Below, piece after piece: positions 3,852 to 13,935 of a stretch of DNA of 21,573 bases (positions are counted from its first letter, which is position 1; each line of letters starts with the position of its first letter). Origin of the DNA: a virus. The notes below the pieces were generated by a model. That model made no database searches. It saw nothing but the letters and a program-made list of their open reading frames with translations, and had not been told where the DNA came from. Position numbers and translations under genes: made by a program. Location: IMG/VR virus record IMGVR_UViG_3300028844_005888, positions 1 to 21,573 of that record; one strand, given 5' to 3'.

Positions 3852-3880
3852 AAACAAGTGGTTGACAACTGCTTGTTTTT
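3852..3880 (+). terminator. Intrinsic terminator overlapping a promoter
   Basis: A 12-bp stem (3852-3863 with 3867-3878, including two G-U pairs) with a three-base GAC loop, followed by Ts to 3880. It lies after the stop of the 3495 gene. The -35 box of the next promoter (3862-3867) forms the hairpin tip, so the same bases would end one transcript and start the next. Confidence 0.55.
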
Positions 3881-3890
3881 ACTATATAAT
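3862..3890 (+). promoter_or_regulatory. Sigma70-type promoter, consensus
   Basis: TTGACA (3862-3867), 17-nt spacer, TATAAT (3885-3890). This is a perfect match in both boxes, so it should be very strong. It drives the DUF932 gene. Confidence 0.8.
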
Positions 3891-3932: not shown

Positions 3933-4907
3933 ATGGCACATGAAGTTGAAATGGTAGACGGCGTAGCACAAATGGCTTACGCTGGAGATACACCTTGGCA
4001 TGGACTGGGTACGCCAGTATCCAATGATTTGACGCCAATGCAAATGCAGCAAAAAGCTGGACTTGACTGGGAAGTACAAAAAGTCCCGTCATTCATCGAA
4101 ATTGATGGCCAGAAAATCAAGACTGGTCAAGAGTCTTTGGTTCGTCTAAGTGACAACAAAGTCCTCACAAACGTTGGTGAAGGTTGGAACCCTTGTCAAA
4201 ACTCTGATGCTTTTAACTTTTTTGCAGAATACGTTGCAGCTGGTGACATGGAAATGCACACTGCAGGTTCTCTCAAAGGCGGTCAGATCACATGGGCACT
4301 AGCAAAAGTAAAAGAGTCTTTCGACGTATTTGGAGAAGATACTGTTGAATCATTCTTGCTTTTCAGTAATCCACATCAATACGGGAAATCAATTGATGTT
4401 CGTTTTACTCCAGTTCGTGTTGTTTGTAACAATACTCTTACAATGTCACTTGAACAAGGCGTAAAAAATTCAGCTAAAGTTGGTCACCGTGCAGTGTTTA
4501 ATGCAAACAATGTAAAGACTACTCTCGGCATTGCATCCGAAAAGTTTTCAAAGTACAAAGAAATGGCACAGTTCTTGGGTTCTAAGCGTGTTACCGCTGA
4601 TGATTTGATTACATTCTATAATGATGTATTTCCAAATACTTCACGTACCAAAGAACAGGCTCAAGTTGACAAGCTTGCCGATCTTTCACGCAATGCAAAA
4701 CTTTGCTATGATGTTCTAGAAACTCAGCCCGGCGCAGAATTTGCACCAGGGACTTGGTGGAGCGCATTGAATAGCGTGACATATGTTACAGATCACGTAC
4801 AGGGTCGCAATGCTGAAAATCGTCTGCATAGTCAGTGGTTTGGCATCAATCAAACTCGCAAAGTAAAAGCGGCAGAAAAAGCGGTTGAACTTGCTAATGC
4901 TGCATAA
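3933..4907 (+). CDS. DUF932 (TIGR03299) phage/plasmid-like protein
   Basis: A 324-residue protein of the DUF932 family, common in phages and plasmids. The hallmark start is present: GVAQMAYAGDTPWHGLG (about residues 10-26), followed by DLTPMQMQQKAGLDWEV and, near residue 165, the conserved FTPVRVVCNNTLTMSL. Length and domain order match the family. Its exact biochemical role is not established; it is often seen among early genes and near DNA-modifying functions. It is transcribed from the strongest promoter in the window and its codon use looks less AT-rich than its neighbours', both signs of high expression. The start ATG 3933 sits behind AAAGGG. An unusual folded RNA region follows its stop. 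Confidence 0.9.
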   Translation: MAHEVEMVDGVAQMAYAGDTPWHGLGTPVSNDLTPMQMQQKAGLDWEVQKVPSFIEIDGQKIKTGQESLVRLSDNKVLTNVGEGWNPCQNSDAFNFFAEYVAAGDMEMHTAGSLKGGQITWALAKVKESFDVFGEDTVESFLLFSNPHQYGKSIDVRFTPVRVVCNNTLTMSLEQGVKNSAKVGHRAVFNANNVKTTLGIASEKFSKYKEMAQFLGSKRVTADDLITFYNDVFPNTSRTKEQAQVDKLADLSRNAKLCYDVLETQPGAEFAPGTWWSALNSVTYVTDHVQGRNAENRLHSQWFGINQTRKVKAAEKAVELANAA

Positions 4908-4915
4908 AAGAATTT

Positions 4916-5186
4916 GGGAGAGATTGATTTCTCTCCCATCACTTGACCCGCTAGGCTAGTTACCTAGATAGTCCTGGAGTTGCACTCTGACGAAGTGAAC
5001 CGTCTAACTAAACGGAAACAAAGCACGATCACAAGTAGTGCGGCATTGAGATTGCCGATAAAAGATAAGCAGTGAGAGAGGTCTACTCCACCAGAACTAG
5101 ACCTTCAAGGAGAGACACTTTCATAAGACGAGTACTCGGCGGTAAAGTGTGATTTTTGTTTGCTCAATGATACTGTTTATCTTTTC
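4916..5186 (+). ncRNA. Candidate large structured RNA, unknown class
   Basis: This 374-nt gap between genes holds no credible gene but many hairpins. Seen in order: 4916-4923/4930-4937 (8 bp); 4951-4955/4963-4967 (5 bp); 4979-4981 and 4983-4986 with 4994-5000 (7 bp, one bulge); 5000-5003/5012-5015; 5023-5026/5038-5041; 5042-5045/5053-5056; then a long-range 14-bp helix 5060-5073/5172-5185 (one G-U) enclosing a 7-bp hairpin 5079-5085/5098-5104 and a 7-bp stem 5115-5121/5144-5150 capped by CGA-GTAC-TCG (5129-5138). The region is also GC-richer than nearby intergenic DNA. It does not match tRNA, tmRNA, RNase P or group I intron cores that I can recognise. The first hairpin may instead end the DUF932 transcript, in which case the RNA would start near 4977. 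Confidence 0.6.
4943..4970 (+). promoter_or_regulatory. Possible promoter for the structured RNA
   Basis: TTGACC (4943-4948), 16-nt spacer, TAGATA (4965-4970). It would start an RNA near 4977, just before the hairpin cluster. These bases also form the 4951-4967 hairpin, so the two readings compete. Confidence 0.35.
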
Positions 5187-5228
5187 TCACATTTCATAAA
5201 ACTTTTACATAATTTGCAGTTATTTTTA

Positions 5229-5236
5229 TATAAATT
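5229..5236 (+). promoter_or_regulatory. Late-like promoter box
   Basis: TATAAATT, one base off the T4 late box, in an AT-rich stretch about 46 nt before the transporter start at 5282. Weak evidence. Confidence 0.25.
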
Positions 5237-5281: not shown

Positions 5282-6271
5282 ATGGAAGTTATGAGTATTT
5301 GGATGCTGATCGGATTTTTATTTGCGGCATATGCGGTTATCGCAAACGATTCAGTTCAAACTTTGGGAACATGGATTGCATCAAATAATGAAAGATTTAA
5401 TTGGAAAGTTATGTGGGGTGCAGCTTCGGCTGTGCTCCTTTGGGCTTTGTGGTATGGCTGGTATAATTATGGAGGTGATATCAGTTATGGTCGTTTGAAT
5501 AAAATTCCATGGCAAGAGGTACAATGGTATCACGCACTTGCTCCTGGAGTATTATTGTTATTGACAAGGGTAGGTGTACCAGTAAGTACATCTTTCTTGG
5601 TATTATCTGCATTTGCTAGTACATTTGTATTAGAAAAAATGTTGATGAAATCTATGTTAGGATATGCCGTTGCAGCCGTTGCGGCTTATGCAATATGGAT
5701 GATTGTCAGTAAGTTATTAGATGAAGCAAAACCTGTAAAAGAAAATCATAAGAATTATTGGCGCATTGGTCAATGGGTAACGACTGGATTTCTATGGTGG
5801 ACTTGGTTATCTCATGATATGGCAAACATTGCTGTTTTTCTTCCCAGAGAATTGTCGGTTGAATTGATGCTTATGATATCCGTTGTTTTTGTTGCTGGTC
5901 TTGGTTTTATGCTAAGAGAAGGTGGCGGTAAGATTCAACAGATTGTTCTAGAAAAACACAACACAAGATATGTGAGGTCTGCAACAATTATTGATGGAGT
6001 TTATTGGCTTATTTTATATTTCTTTAAAGAATTAAATGATATTCCAATGTCAACTACATGGGTTTTTGTTGGTCTATTATGTGGTAGAGAACTTGCTATG
6101 GCAACAGTAACAGGCAAAGAAAAATTTAAAGTCGTATTTCCATTAATTGGTAAAGACTTTCTCAAAATGATGGTTGGTCTTGCAGCATCACTTGCTATTG
6201 TTCTTTCAATTCATTATGTATTTAATCCTATGCATAATGAAGAAGAAACTACACAAGAAATTACACAATAA
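5282..6271 (+). CDS. PiT-like phosphate transporter (compact, divergent)
   Basis: A 329-residue membrane protein with about nine or ten hydrophobic segments. It has the two-fold repeat of the PiT (inorganic phosphate transporter, PHO4) family: AND with SVQTLGT at 21-30 and PVSTSF at 100-105 in the first half, SHDMAN at 177-182 and PMSTTW at 255-260 in the second. Family members import phosphate with H+ or Na+ across the inner membrane. I chose ATG 5282, 6 nt after GGAG; ATG 5279 is adjacent, and a GTG at 5240 gives a longer, less likely start. It is shorter than the usual 400-500 residues. The His that normally ends each PxSTTH motif is Phe and Trp here, so transport ability or substrate may differ. 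It is a plausible phage metabolic gene for phosphate-poor water. Confidence 0.7.
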   Translation: MEVMSIWMLIGFLFAAYAVIANDSVQTLGTWIASNNERFNWKVMWGAASAVLLWALWYGWYNYGGDISYGRLNKIPWQEVQWYHALAPGVLLLLTRVGVPVSTSFLVLSAFASTFVLEKMLMKSMLGYAVAAVAAYAIWMIVSKLLDEAKPVKENHKNYWRIGQWVTTGFLWWTWLSHDMANIAVFLPRELSVELMLMISVVFVAGLGFMLREGGGKIQQIVLEKHNTRYVRSATIIDGVYWLILYFFKELNDIPMSTTWVFVGLLCGRELAMATVTGKEKFKVVFPLIGKDFLKMMVGLAASLAIVLSIHYVFNPMHNEEETTQEITQ

Positions 6272-9043: not shown

Positions 9044-10261
9044 ATGAGAGACTTTCGTACTTTTATTACAGAACAGAAAAATACTCATATGACTCATATA
9101 GAAGATAAAGTGTTATATGGTGGAGTAAAAGGTACAAGAGAAGCTATTTTTGCATTAATTGGTATGCGAGATATGTTATCGGGTGTTAAGAAAGGAAACG
9201 TAAGTGTTAAATGGGACGGTGCTCCTGCTGTATTCGCTGGTATTGATCCGAGTGATAACCGCTTTTTTGTTGCCAAAAAAGGCATATTCAATAAAAACCC
9301 TAAGGTCTATAAATCTCCAGCTGATATTGATGCTGATACTTCTGGCGACCTTAATGCTAAGTTACAAGACGCACTCAAATACTTGCCGGAATTGGGAATC
9401 AAAGGCGTGGTCCAAGGAGACTTCTTATATTCCCGAGATGATTTGTCAAATCAAACAATTGCCGGAAAAAAATATACTACCTTTCATCCTAACACATTGA
9501 TTTATGCAATAGACCAAGGTTCGCCTGCAGCAAAAGATATAAAAAATTCTAAAATAGGTATTGTTTGGCACACTACATATACTGGAGATTCATTTGAGAA
9601 TATGAAAGCTAGTTATGGTGTGAATATAAAGAAATTTAAAAAATCTAAAAATGTTTGGTCTCAAGATGCCATGCTAAGAGATATGACAGGCATTACAATG
9701 TCTGCAAAAGATACAACTGAAGTGAATAAACAATTGACTGAAATAGGTAAATTATTTAATCAGATTTCTAGTTCTACACTCAAGCAATTAGAGACTAATG
9801 AAGATTTAGCTAAATCGATAGAAACTTTTAACAATACATATGTACGTCAAGGACAAATTATAAAAGATACTCAAAAACATGTCAATAATTTAATTCAATG
9901 GCACAAAGATAAGTTCCAAAAAGAAATCGATAAGAGAAAAACTGATAAGGGCAAATTAGCACAAAAGAATAAAAGAGATGATCTGTTGAAATTTTTTTCA
10001 GAAACTAACAAATCCAATCTAAAAAAGATGTTCGATCTGCAAAAATTGATAGTTCTAGTTAAATTGAAACTTATAAATATACTTAATAGAATCAAAAATT
10101 ATGATGTATTTGTTAAAACCAAAGATGGTTTTAAAGTATCTGGTGATGAAGGCTATGTAGCAATTGATAAACTTGGTGGTGACGCAGTGAAACTTGTTGA
10201 TCGTATGGAATTTTCATACAACAACTTTTCACCAGAAATTTTAAAAGGATGGGAAAAATAA
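9044..10261 (+). CDS. DUF6267-type protein with ligase-like motifs
   Basis: A 405-residue protein typical of marine T4-like phages, which I recognise as DUF6267. The core holds KWDG (56-59) in VSVKWDGAPAVFAG, then FFVAKKG (74-80), GDFLYS (125-130), and near the end DEGYVAI (368-374) and AVKLVDR (381-387). These resemble motifs I, III, IV and V of ATP-dependent ligases and capping enzymes, where the motif I Lys carries the nucleotide. A long helical Lys-rich insert (about 230-350) separates III from IV, which is unusual. The N-terminus MRDFRTFITE ends in IxE at residue 10, like the T4 capsid-targeting peptide cut by the prohead protease, so it may be packaged. Start ATG 9044, AAAGG upstream. 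Confidence 0.75.
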   Translation: MRDFRTFITEQKNTHMTHIEDKVLYGGVKGTREAIFALIGMRDMLSGVKKGNVSVKWDGAPAVFAGIDPSDNRFFVAKKGIFNKNPKVYKSPADIDADTSGDLNAKLQDALKYLPELGIKGVVQGDFLYSRDDLSNQTIAGKKYTTFHPNTLIYAIDQGSPAAKDIKNSKIGIVWHTTYTGDSFENMKASYGVNIKKFKKSKNVWSQDAMLRDMTGITMSAKDTTEVNKQLTEIGKLFNQISSSTLKQLETNEDLAKSIETFNNTYVRQGQIIKDTQKHVNNLIQWHKDKFQKEIDKRKTDKGKLAQKNKRDDLLKFFSETNKSNLKKMFDLQKLIVLVKLKLINILNRIKNYDVFVKTKDGFKVSGDEGYVAIDKLGGDAVKLVDRMEFSYNNFSPEILKGWEK

Positions 10262-10263
10262 GA

Positions 10264-13200
10264 ATGCAAAGTTTTAAAGAAAGTCTTTGGGCTAATATTC
10301 ATAAGAAAAGAAAAGAAGGCAGACCTATGCGAAAGCCTGGTTCTAAAGGCGCTCCTACAGACCAAGATTTTAAAAGTGCGCGAGGTGAGTCCGCTGAAGT
10401 AAACGAAATTTCTCCAGAAAAGAAAAAAGCATACAAAAGCAAAGCAGAAAGAGATTTGCCACAACGTACAAAGTATGCCAATAATTATCAAAATGCTGCT
10501 AAAGCCGATCCATCAAATGCAGATTATAAGAAGCGCGGAGATGCCCATCGCCGTAAAGAAAAGAATCGCATGAAAGGCATTGCATCTGTTACTGAGAAAA
10601 ATTGTGGTTGTGGAAAAACTCCCTGCGAAACATATGGTGAAAACTATAGTGAAGGTTTTATGGACACTATGAAACAATTAGTGCCAGGTGCTAGAGGAAA
10701 ACCACAGAAACCACAGCAAGGTAAAAAAACTGCCATGGAAATGCAGTTTCCATATGCCCGTTTATCAGTTCATAGAATGATAGTAGCTTTACGAAAAGCA
10801 AGGGGCACTGCTATGAAGGGTAAAGCGCAGGGGAAAGACCGTAGAGAAAACGAAAGAAGTTTAGGTTTTATTTTAGCTCATGTTGAAGATATAGCAAGAA
10901 ATCGGCACACCGAACAACCAAACAGTGGCAGGCAGATTCATGATGAAGGGAATATAGACGATGCAACCCAACAATATTTTATGGACAAAATTAGACAAAA
11001 CGATTGGACAAAAGCTGATCAGGAAATTTTAAATGCTATGGTTGGTAACGGAACAGATGACAATACAAAGGGTGGTGCATATCATGCAAGATCGTTGGCC
11101 CACGATATCGCTCTTTCGGTAAAGTATGCAAAGAAAGATGCTGGTATTAAAGAATCTGTTAATGAAGGTTTTATGGACACTATGAAACAATTAGTGCCGG
11201 GCGCAAAAGGAAAGCCTGCAAAAAAACTTAATGCAAAAAAACTTAATGCAGAACAAGTTAAAATATCTAAACAAATAGATAAAAAATTAAAATTAATTGA
11301 TGGTTTAATACAAAAAGTGCGACCACTAGGCGGTCAAATTGGTGGATTGGTGAGATTTAGCAAACTTCCGATTGAAAAAATGACTCCAAAAGATTTGTAT
11401 AGAGTATTGAACGATTGGTACGATTCTATAGAAGATGAATTAGACAATGGTGATGATAGTGCCGTTTTATCGAAAAAATATGGACGTTCAGTGGAAGACC
11501 TTCATGAACGCCTCGAAGAACTGGCACTTAAAATAAAAGATTATATGTATGCTTCTGGATATGATGTTCCACACGGTGGTGCAAAATTTCAATATCGATG
11601 GTTGAACAAAGTTGATTTTAGTGCTTCAAAGAGAACAGATGCAAAATGGTTGAAAATGAATGAATCTGTTGATGAAGGTTTTATGGACACATTCTTGGGC
11701 AGAAATATGAAAAAGGGCAATGTTGATAAGAAAAGAGTAAAAAAATCTAAAAATTCAGAACAAGTTAAATTATCTACAGAAATAGATAGAAAATTAAGAT
11801 TGATAGATGACTTAATGCAAAAAGTGCGACCATTGGGCGGCAAGCTTGGAAAATTAATGGCATTTCGCAAACTTCCGATTGAAAAAATGACTCCAAAGGG
11901 TATGTACTTAGCCTTGAATGATTGGTGGTCATCTATAGAAGCTGATTTAGATGACGACTCTGAAGATGATAATGAAAAGTATGCACAATCAGCAGAAAAA
12001 CTTTATGATCTTTGGGAAGAAGTAGGATTTAAACTAAGTGACTATATGTGGGCTTCTGGATATAATATTAAGGGAATCGGTCAGATGGCGAAGATAGGTT
12101 TTCCCGCTAAAAAGAGAACAGATCCAGAATGGTTGAAAATGAATGAATCTGTTGATGAAGGTTTCATGGACGCCATTCTAGGCAAAAATATGAAAAAGCG
12201 CGCAGAAGGAAATGCAGAACAAACTAAAATAGCTACGGATATTAATAGAAAATTAACATTAATTGATGGTTTAATGAAAAAGGTAAAACCTCTAGGCGGC
12301 AAGATGACTAGGTTGACTTCATTTCGCAAGACACCAATCAAAAAAATGACTCCAAAAGATTTGTATAGAGCATTGAATGATTGGTACTTATCTATAGATG
12401 ATTATCTCAATGACAATCCTGAAGTTGATAAACGTCATGGGCCCACAGTAGTCAAACTTCATAGTGTTTGGGAAGAAGTAGCAGATAAAGTACAAGACTA
12501 TATGTGGGCTTCTGGATACAATGTTAAACGCGGCGCGCAGAGCAAAGGGGGAAATATCATTGCTGATGTAATAAAGCCCGGCGGTCCTGTCATGGTACAG
12601 ACGAAAAAATTGAAAGTTGATGGAAAACTGGTGGATATTGATTATAATGTGCCAAAGAGAACAGATGCAAAATGGTTGAAAATGAATGAATCTAGAGTCA
12701 AAAACGTGGTAAGAGGAATGGGGGTTGATCCTGATCTTGTAATGAGAGGAATGGGAAAAGGTCCACATGCCGCAAAAGATAAGGCAAGAGCAGCAAAAGA
12801 ACCGAAAAAAACATTAAAATCTAGGGCTAAGAATGTGGCAAGAGGTATGGGTGTTGATCCAGATAATGTAATGAGAGGAATGGGTTTCAAAGAAGCTTCA
12901 GAACTTGATGAAAATAAAGCTGGGCGCCCCGTTTACTATTCAGTTGATCTTAATCATCAAATTCTGAAAGTGCATGATAGCAAAGAAGCTGGTATGAAAT
13001 ATAAAGTAGGCGGCGATGGACCAGATGGACATTTTTTAGTAAAAACAATTAGCAAAGCCCAAGGCAAAAAGCAAGTTGGGCGTTTTGTTGGGCGTCTGGT
13101 TAGCCGGCATTTAGACAAACAACCCTTTCCACACGATGATGGACCACATTATTCTGTACATAAAGAATCTGTTGAACTTGATGAATCAGTTTATGATAAA

Positions 13201-13935
13201 AAGTTGGCTCAAGCTTGGAAAAAAGTTAAATCTCTTCCTAATGTCCGAGGCATAAGTAATTCTGGCCAAAATCATGCAAAGAAACTATCTTCTTTGTTAA
13301 AAGGTAGTCCCGATAAACTTACATTTGAGAAATTAGAATTGGCTCTTGGTACTTATGAGACTCACGCATATAAGGCTGCAGAAGATAAGACAAATCCACA
13401 TGGAAAAGAAGACCTAGCAAAACTACAGGAATTTTGTGATTCGGTAGATGAAGTTATTGGTGCAATGAAAAATCTGCATCAAAGTAAACTTAAAGAAAGC
13501 CTTGAAGAAAATTATATGGCATGTAAAGATTGTGGTGATGAATTTGCAAAACCTACAACTGATTGTGAAAATGACTGTTATGATGAAAATGGTAGTCATT
13601 GGGAGTCTGTTGATGAAGCGTTGAGTATGCAACAAAGACTTGCTAGAGGTAGATCCGCTAGAAGAAATAAACAGAAAATGGCTCGTGGTAGAGAACGCGC
13701 TAAAAGAAAAGTTGCTACTAAAGATGTTCTGATGAAAAGAGCAAGAAAAGCAGCAAGAAAAGCACTATATAAAAAGTTGACAAAAAATGCTACAGACTTG
13801 TCTCCGGCAAGAAAAAAAGAACTTGAGACAAAGCTTCAGAAACCACAAATGCAAAAAGTGGTACATAGATTAGCTAAGAAGTTAGTGCCTAAAATTAAAA
13901 AAGCTGAAACTCAAAGAAGGTCAGGCTCAAAATAA
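10264..13935 (+). CDS. Giant modular head-core/polyprotein candidate
   Basis: A 1223-residue highly charged, basic protein starting at ATG 10264, 2 nt after the previous stop; an ATG at 10249 would overlap. Parts in order: MQSFKESLWANIHKKRKEG start typical of marine phage core proteins; Cys motif CGCGKTPC (from 114); a helical module after SEGFMD; three homologous modules of 160-180 residues (297-466, 467-627, 628-808), each opening ESV(N/D)EGFMD and ending (A/P)(K/E)WLKMN; a duplicated RGMGVDPD motif (about 809 and 853); a module closed by KESVELDE; a possible zinc ribbon CxxC-x10-CxxxC (1087-1105); and a strongly basic Arg/Lys tail. The recurring tags look like protease sites between units, and the basic tail could bind packaged DNA. 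Function is inferred. Confidence 0.8.
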   Translation: MQSFKESLWANIHKKRKEGRPMRKPGSKGAPTDQDFKSARGESAEVNEISPEKKKAYKSKAERDLPQRTKYANNYQNAAKADPSNADYKKRGDAHRRKEKNRMKGIASVTEKNCGCGKTPCETYGENYSEGFMDTMKQLVPGARGKPQKPQQGKKTAMEMQFPYARLSVHRMIVALRKARGTAMKGKAQGKDRRENERSLGFILAHVEDIARNRHTEQPNSGRQIHDEGNIDDATQQYFMDKIRQNDWTKADQEILNAMVGNGTDDNTKGGAYHARSLAHDIALSVKYAKKDAGIKESVNEGFMDTMKQLVPGAKGKPAKKLNAKKLNAEQVKISKQIDKKLKLIDGLIQKVRPLGGQIGGLVRFSKLPIEKMTPKDLYRVLNDWYDSIEDELDNGDDSAVLSKKYGRSVEDLHERLEELALKIKDYMYASGYDVPHGGAKFQYRWLNKVDFSASKRTDAKWLKMNESVDEGFMDTFLGRNMKKGNVDKKRVKKSKNSEQVKLSTEIDRKLRLIDDLMQKVRPLGGKLGKLMAFRKLPIEKMTPKGMYLALNDWWSSIEADLDDDSEDDNEKYAQSAEKLYDLWEEVGFKLSDYMWASGYNIKGIGQMAKIGFPAKKRTDPEWLKMNESVDEGFMDAILGKNMKKRAEGNAEQTKIATDINRKLTLIDGLMKKVKPLGGKMTRLTSFRKTPIKKMTPKDLYRALNDWYLSIDDYLNDNPEVDKRHGPTVVKLHSVWEEVADKVQDYMWASGYNVKRGAQSKGGNIIADVIKPGGPVMVQTKKLKVDGKLVDIDYNVPKRTDAKWLKMNESRVKNVVRGMGVDPDLVMRGMGKGPHAAKDKARAAKEPKKTLKSRAKNVARGMGVDPDNVMRGMGFKEASELDENKAGRPVYYSVDLNHQILKVHDSKEAGMKYKVGGDGPDGHFLVKTISKAQGKKQVGRFVGRLVSRHLDKQPFPHDDGPHYSVHKESVELDESVYDKKLAQAWKKVKSLPNVRGISNSGQNHAKKLSSLLKGSPDKLTFEKLELALGTYETHAYKAAEDKTNPHGKEDLAKLQEFCDSVDEVIGAMKNLHQSKLKESLEENYMACKDCGDEFAKPTTDCENDCYDENGSHWESVDEALSMQQRLARGRSARRNKQKMARGRERAKRKVATKDVLMKRARKAARKALYKKLTKNATDLSPARKKELETKLQKPQMQKVVHRLAKKLVPKIKKAETQRRSGSK
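10651..11198 (+). repeat. 35-nt direct repeat at two module starts
   Basis: Bases 10651-10685 recur exactly at 11164-11198 and encode EGFMDTMKQLVP in both. Identity at silent positions implies recent duplication or gene conversion of module starts. Confidence 0.85.
11152..12687 (+). repeat. Three tandem protein modules
   Basis: Units 11152-11661, 11662-12144 and 12145-12687. Each contains ESV(N/D)EGFMD, a helix KLxLIDxLxxKV(R/K)PLGG, a core P(I)xKMTPKxxYxxLNDW(Y/W)xSI, then DYM(Y/W)ASGY and KRTD(A/P)(K/E)WLKMN. Units differ by many substitutions between the conserved blocks, so the array is older than the 35-nt repeat. Confidence 0.9.

Follow-up and report, generated by a model that had tools for sequence, protein, structure and literature searches.

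A candidate structured RNA downstream of the DUF932 gene in T4-like marine phages

Described phage RNAs and the present locus

Beyond tRNAs and riboswitches, little of phage RNA biology has been charted, and phages whose hosts are streamlined marine bacteria may depend on RNA regulation. Phage T4 encodes rnaC and rnaD, orphan stable RNAs of 119-139 nt, and T4-type phages reportedly carry promoter-stem-loop cassettes termed PeSLs. GOLLD and ROOL are large phage and prophage RNAs that form RNA-only cages, many of the GOLLD RNAs being longer than 800 nt (PMC12286853). The manA (RF01745) and wcaG (RF01761) RNAs of T4-like cyanophages were described as putative 5'-UTR riboswitches (PMC2864571), and the OM43 phage Melnitz encodes a permuted tmRNA and a glutamine riboswitch (PMC9004378).

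We analyzed a 21,573-nt virus record from a T4-like marine phage (IMGVR_UViG_3300028844_005888; the whole stretch is hereafter called the window). Its closest isolate at the DNA level is Melnitz, with similarity limited to part of the DUF932 gene. The non-coding element studied here occupies positions 4908-5191, between the DUF932 gene and a membrane-protein gene at 5282, and on the best reading of the sequence comparisons it is a putative, previously undescribed and narrowly distributed structured phage RNA of ~250-285 nt. The locus upstream of the right flank comprises the following features.

3933..4907, + strand: DUF932 gene (PF06067, phrog_1221), adjoining the RNA element on its 5' side
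4915..4938, + strand: hairpin 1, a perfect 9-bp stem (4915-4923/4930-4938); stem invariant, loop variable
4938..5060, + strand: conserved 5' domain, 92-99% identity among homologues, same fold returned by RNAalifold
4939-4944/4993-4998, + strand: P1, stem of the 5' domain
4951-4955/4963-4967, + strand: H2, stem of the 5' domain
4971-4991, + strand: H3, hairpin of the 5' domain
5000-5003/5012-5015, + strand: H4, stem of the 5' domain
5023-5026/5038-5041, + strand: H5, stem of the 5' domain
5042-5045/5053-5056, + strand: H6, stem of the 5' domain
5060..5191, + strand: 3' domain, a long-range helix (5060-5074/5171-5185) around hairpins A and B
5079..5104, + strand: hairpin A (stem 5079-5085/5098-5104), AGGUCUA/UAGACCU; in L002-L004 AGAUUCUA/UAGAAUCU
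5115..5150, + strand: hairpin B (stem 5115-5121/5144-5150), ACACUUU/AAAGUGU; clade-specific

The original prediction, made from the window alone, placed here a multi-branched RNA that could be assigned to no known class, in a gap free of genes. We likewise find no conserved ORF from the DUF932 stop (4907) to the next plausible start (5282). A protein-coding reading of the element was rejected, since changes in the shared 5' domain show no third-position bias (our own count on the alignment), the H6 loop contains a 2-nt indel, and for the 66-codon open frame of L002-L003 no relatives exist in PHROGs, Pfam or phages. For the DUF932 protein, the structure model, of low confidence (pLDDT 70, pTM 0.53), has no PDB match.

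Covariance-model searches returned no Rfam 15 family at or above the gathering cut-off, the best sub-threshold matches being at chance level, and ARAGORN reported no tRNA or tmRNA in the window or at the site of the element in the relatives. The element shares with GOLLD and ROOL a phage origin, an elaborate fold, candidate kissing loops and the lack of an obvious protein partner; however, it differs from them in size, matches neither Rfam model, and is located in a window in which no tRNA was found. Similarly to manA and wcaG, it is a structured RNA of marine T4-like phages that lies beside metabolic genes, but it has no Rfam match, and the downstream gene seems to be preceded by a promoter region of its own. 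The RNA genes of Melnitz occur in a related marine myophage; unlike the Melnitz tmRNA, the element has no recognisable T arm and gives no match. Its interpretation as a piece of a tmRNA was discarded because a recognisable permuted tmRNA is present elsewhere in some relatives. Permuted tmRNA genes in element-carrying phages (L082:7596-7951, - strand; L084:3308-3829, + strand; L085:11802-12323, - strand) are located ~7-8 kb upstream of the element on the same strand, and are 522 nt long in L084 and L085 and 356 nt in L082. T4 rnaC and rnaD are also orphan phage RNAs; identity with them was rejected, there being no meaningful sequence similarity and a different place and size. Strings resembling hammerhead and group I RNAs by eye were likewise set aside as not conserved or incomplete and without an Rfam match. 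At most, the element resembles the broad group of orphan phage RNAs that includes GOLLD, ROOL and T4 rnaC/rnaD. On the tests made it is a member of none of these, and it is most suitably classed as a candidate new family of RNAs whose general kind is already known.

Fold, sequence constraint and paired exchanges

The prediction had specified a 14-bp long-range helix with one G-U pair (5060-5073/5172-5185) enclosing two 7-bp hairpins. The helix is present exactly as described and can be extended to 15 bp, and both enclosed hairpins were found; hairpin B is missing from the minimum free energy (MFE) structure of the window, appears in that of L001 and L005, and is absent in L002-L004. Region 4916-5186 folds with an MFE of -79.8 kcal/mol (z -2.84), which none of 200 dinucleotide shuffles equalled, and its minus strand gives a z of -2.32. 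The 5' domain alone is ordinary in stability (z -0.83 in the window, 0.12 in L002 and 0.38 in L004), and the 3' domain alone has z-scores of -1.89 in the window, -3.64 in L005, -1.84 in L002 and -0.88 in L004. The folding signal of the window is carried mainly by the 3' domain and the 9-bp hairpin 1, and folding energy by itself is therefore insufficient to establish an RNA.

Comparison with the homologues reveals strong constraint on the primary sequence. Between the window and L001 the element differs at 4/292 positions (1.4%) versus 37/152 fourfold sites of the DUF932 gene (24%); for L005 the corresponding values are 13/293 (4.4%) and 60/144 (42%) (Fisher p ~1e-14 and ~1e-21, respectively). 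Relative to L002, the 5' domain differs at 9/121 positions and the fourfold sites at 49/146. Beyond position 5191, identity to the window drops to 85% in L005 and the alignment with L001 becomes poor. The simplest cause of the low divergence of the element would be purifying selection. Recombination was rejected as its source because third-position differences in DUF932 continue through the last 40 codons, an argument that does not reach a recombination tract beginning exactly at the DUF932 stop.

The 3' domain has a common layout and different letters in the two clades of homologues. In the long helix, seven columns are changed on both sides with pairing kept, one column is changed on one side, pairing is lost at two inner columns in L002-L004, and the clades do not share the two outermost pairs; these counts rest on an alignment of six distinct sequences with a hand-made 3' part. 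In one of the both-sides columns the window has A-U, L001 has G-U, and L005 and L002-L004 have G-C. Hairpin A shows one exchange of G-C for A-U and one inserted base pair in L002-L004. RNAfold of L002 alone recovers the long helix and hairpin A without any alignment. When the L002 helix is tested against shuffles without fixing the register, 3.6% of shuffles reach at least 11 of 13 pairs, so that this test alone is modest; it should gain strength from the conserved GATA and CAATGA anchors, between which the register is fixed. Consensus folding compared with column shuffles gives z -6.5 on the + strand and -4.1 on the - strand (SCI 0.78 versus 0.64; 3' part hand-aligned). Base-pair cells include 22 G-U versus 2 A-C, and this excess, together with the A-U/G-U/G-C intermediates, points to an RNA on the + strand; a minus-strand RNA was rejected on its weaker consensus energy and on the G-U polarity.

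Within the 5' domain, stem columns vary less than unpaired ones (5/72 versus 12/51, p 0.015) and 99.1% of cells pair, with one mismatch (pair 6-57 in L003 and L004) and an uninformative shuffle control; no pair is changed on both sides among the six sequences. Compensatory base changes, the mark of a structured RNA gene, were thus found in the 3' domain and not in the 5' domain, and the exchanges represent few independent events because there are only six distinct sequences in two clades. Loss of the helices or of compensatory changes in homologous phages, or folding no better than that of shuffled sequence, had been named in advance as evidence against the RNA; instead, the helices are kept with compensatory changes in the 3' domain, folding beats the shuffles, and the multi-branched RNA without a recognised class is retained in the homologous phages.

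Three loops were considered for tertiary contacts.

4957..4962, + strand: H2 loop UAGUUA, candidate kissing partner of the H4 loop
5005..5010, + strand: H4 loop UAACUA/UAACUG, candidate kissing partner of the H2 loop
5047..5051, + strand: H6 loop UGAGA, weak candidate for a pseudoknot with the tail UCUCA at 5185-5189

The H2-H4 contact comprises six pairs in 6/6 sequences, a number reached by 0.4% of shuffled loop pairs (uncorrected for the number of loops compared). The counterpart of the H6-tail contact in L002-L004 is UGGGU with ACCCG, and each of these two matches is likely by chance alone (P 0.18 and 0.32). That the H2 and H4 loops might pair between molecules to build an RNA-only multimer or scaffold, or that the invariant 5' domain might provide a new host-takeover function, strikes us as a long shot.

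Distribution among DUF932 relatives

DUF932 relatives were collected from IMG/VR, and homologues of the element were found only in this database. The element lies directly 3' of the DUF932 gene in L001, L005/L006 (identical here), L002, L003 and L004; these represent five distinct sequences beyond the window, fall into two clades, and all follow DUF932 genes that are at least 94% identical. Most DUF932 relatives lack it. The RNA is not a general companion of DUF932 genes. Pattern scans and the covariance model R1, built from the 5' domain, detected no further copy in the fetched loci, the longer records behind them, or Melnitz, and phage records contain no match to the element beyond chance. 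Scans with 16-20-base patterns (viral_contigs; one of genome_contigs) returned the same set and chance-looking matches, among them L087, L107, L109, L123, L124 and L125, which were rejected as homologues on this ground. Across the records covered by these searches, the element is thus narrowly distributed.

A truncated 42-nt remnant remains in L083, with unrelated DNA to its left and a deletion to its right, showing that the element can be lost. At L083:1-215, the end of a repetitive Lys/Tyr-rich ORF abuts this remnant, and the rest of the element is deleted. Such a piece would suit modular exchange of a cassette at the DNA level, similar to the PeSLs of T4-type phages, as would the location of the element at the edge of a variable gene slot and its combination of a hairpin with a promoter-like string. 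However, the element is larger than a PeSL and has paired exchanges, which, with the G-U polarity, a DNA cassette leaves unexplained; the promoter string beside the stem-loop is not conserved and is no strong sigma-70 promoter (see below), and instead of several similar copies per genome there is one match per record, the records being fragments. We consider a DNA-level role very unlikely.

Transcription, neighbouring genes and possible roles

Three further features bear on the expression of the element.

3862..3890, + strand: sigma-70 promoter TTGACA-N17-TATAAT, a 12/12 consensus match ~42 nt before DUF932
5192..5235, + strand: right flank with Pho-box-like repeats TTTCATAAAAC-TTTTACATAAT and TATAAAT at 5229
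5282..6271, + strand: membrane-protein gene, by eye resembling a PiT phosphate permease; sub-threshold match to Pfam PHO4 (E 2.1)

A private promoter had been proposed for the RNA, and the string TTGACC-N16-TAGATA does occur at 4943-4970, but it is weak as a promoter: its better-scoring form with an 18-nt spacer matches 9/12 consensus positions, promoter-like matches in the region are at shuffle frequency (12 versus 9.2 +/- 3.4), and the -35 box is lost in L002-L004 (TTGCCC/CTGCCC). The promoter at 3862..3890 is the likely source of the transcript, and relatives have promoter-like hexamers at the equivalent place upstream of DUF932. As its own promoter is weak and a conserved sigma-70 promoter precedes DUF932, the RNA would most simply be the 3' part of the DUF932 transcript.

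We propose, with a probability of about 0.5, that the element is a folded non-coding RNA of the + strand that derives from the DUF932 transcript and acts in trans. The early DUF932 transcript, started at the promoter at 3862, would extend 3' into the element, and the RNA would then be released or persist as a stable RNA. The nearly invariant 5' domain would bind a host or phage protein, the ribosome or an RNA in trans, whereas the 3' helix domain would constitute a structural clamp with sequence free to change provided that pairing holds. The sequence comparisons themselves show the conservation, the location, the base-pair exchanges of the 3' domain, the strand bias and the lack of a known family; the transcript, its processing, its action in trans and its partner are inferred.

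The constant position immediately after the DUF932 stop would also fit a cis-acting 3'-UTR element, in which the DUF932 mRNA would be protected or terminated by hairpin 1 together with the folded RNA, or DUF932 expression would be tuned by them. Several relatives without the RNA (L019, L020 and L053) have simple hairpins at the same place, and hairpin 1 itself may be part of the 3' end of the DUF932 mRNA. The sequence comparisons do not by themselves distinguish this role from action in trans. We regard it as possible but rather unlikely, since the RNA is much larger, and also more conserved, than a hairpin serving mRNA stability would have to be, the majority of DUF932 relatives do without it, and there is no intrinsic terminator on the + strand at the element; the 9-bp stem of hairpin 1 has no T run on the + strand and is terminator-like on the - strand.

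The conserved 5' and variable 3' parts also look like an aptamer and an expression platform, and the genes that follow encode a PiT-like permease, a Na/Pi cotransporter, or glyceraldehyde-3-phosphate dehydrogenase and then a Na/Pi cotransporter, as might be expected of a riboswitch-like leader of a downstream metabolic gene. Against such a role, the right flank probably serves as the downstream gene's own promoter region. Its repeats, called Pho-box-like after the PhoB site, lie between the RNA and the gene in the window and in L005, as does the TATAAAT motif. The latter is the late-promoter motif used for Melnitz (PMC9004378). L055 has a region of the same Pho-box/TATAAAT type without the RNA, and in both L055 and L019, which lack the RNA, a transporter gene of this kind comes after DUF932. 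No terminator or sequestration of a ribosome site was seen. A dedicated leader is thus argued against by the differing downstream genes of the two clades and by the occurrence of the slot's transporters without the RNA, and we judge it decidedly unlikely. In L055 and L056, which lack the element, a similar repeat is found immediately after the DUF932 stop, so that the RNA looks like a unit placed after the gene and before the promoter region that follows.

The trans-acting structured RNA is favoured because its size and constraint exceed those of a simple mRNA-end hairpin and because a dedicated leader is argued against. As an orphan RNA under strong constraint and with a defined structure model, the element offers a tangible starting point for expression and pull-down tests, and its narrow distribution and putative role limit its present weight.

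The surrounding genes provided additional observations. Pho-box-like repeats precede phosphate-transporter-like genes in the window (5192-5213), L005 (6260) and L055 (5952), which suggests possible control of phage metabolic genes by the host PhoB. The phage-borne glyceraldehyde-3-phosphate dehydrogenase gene is located at L002:1973-2983 and at the same place in L003 and L004, and in L002 the Na/Pi cotransporter-like gene follows it. Further downstream, the window encodes a 1228-aa ORF (10249-13935) with several internal repeats that contain ESVDEGFMDT-like motifs.
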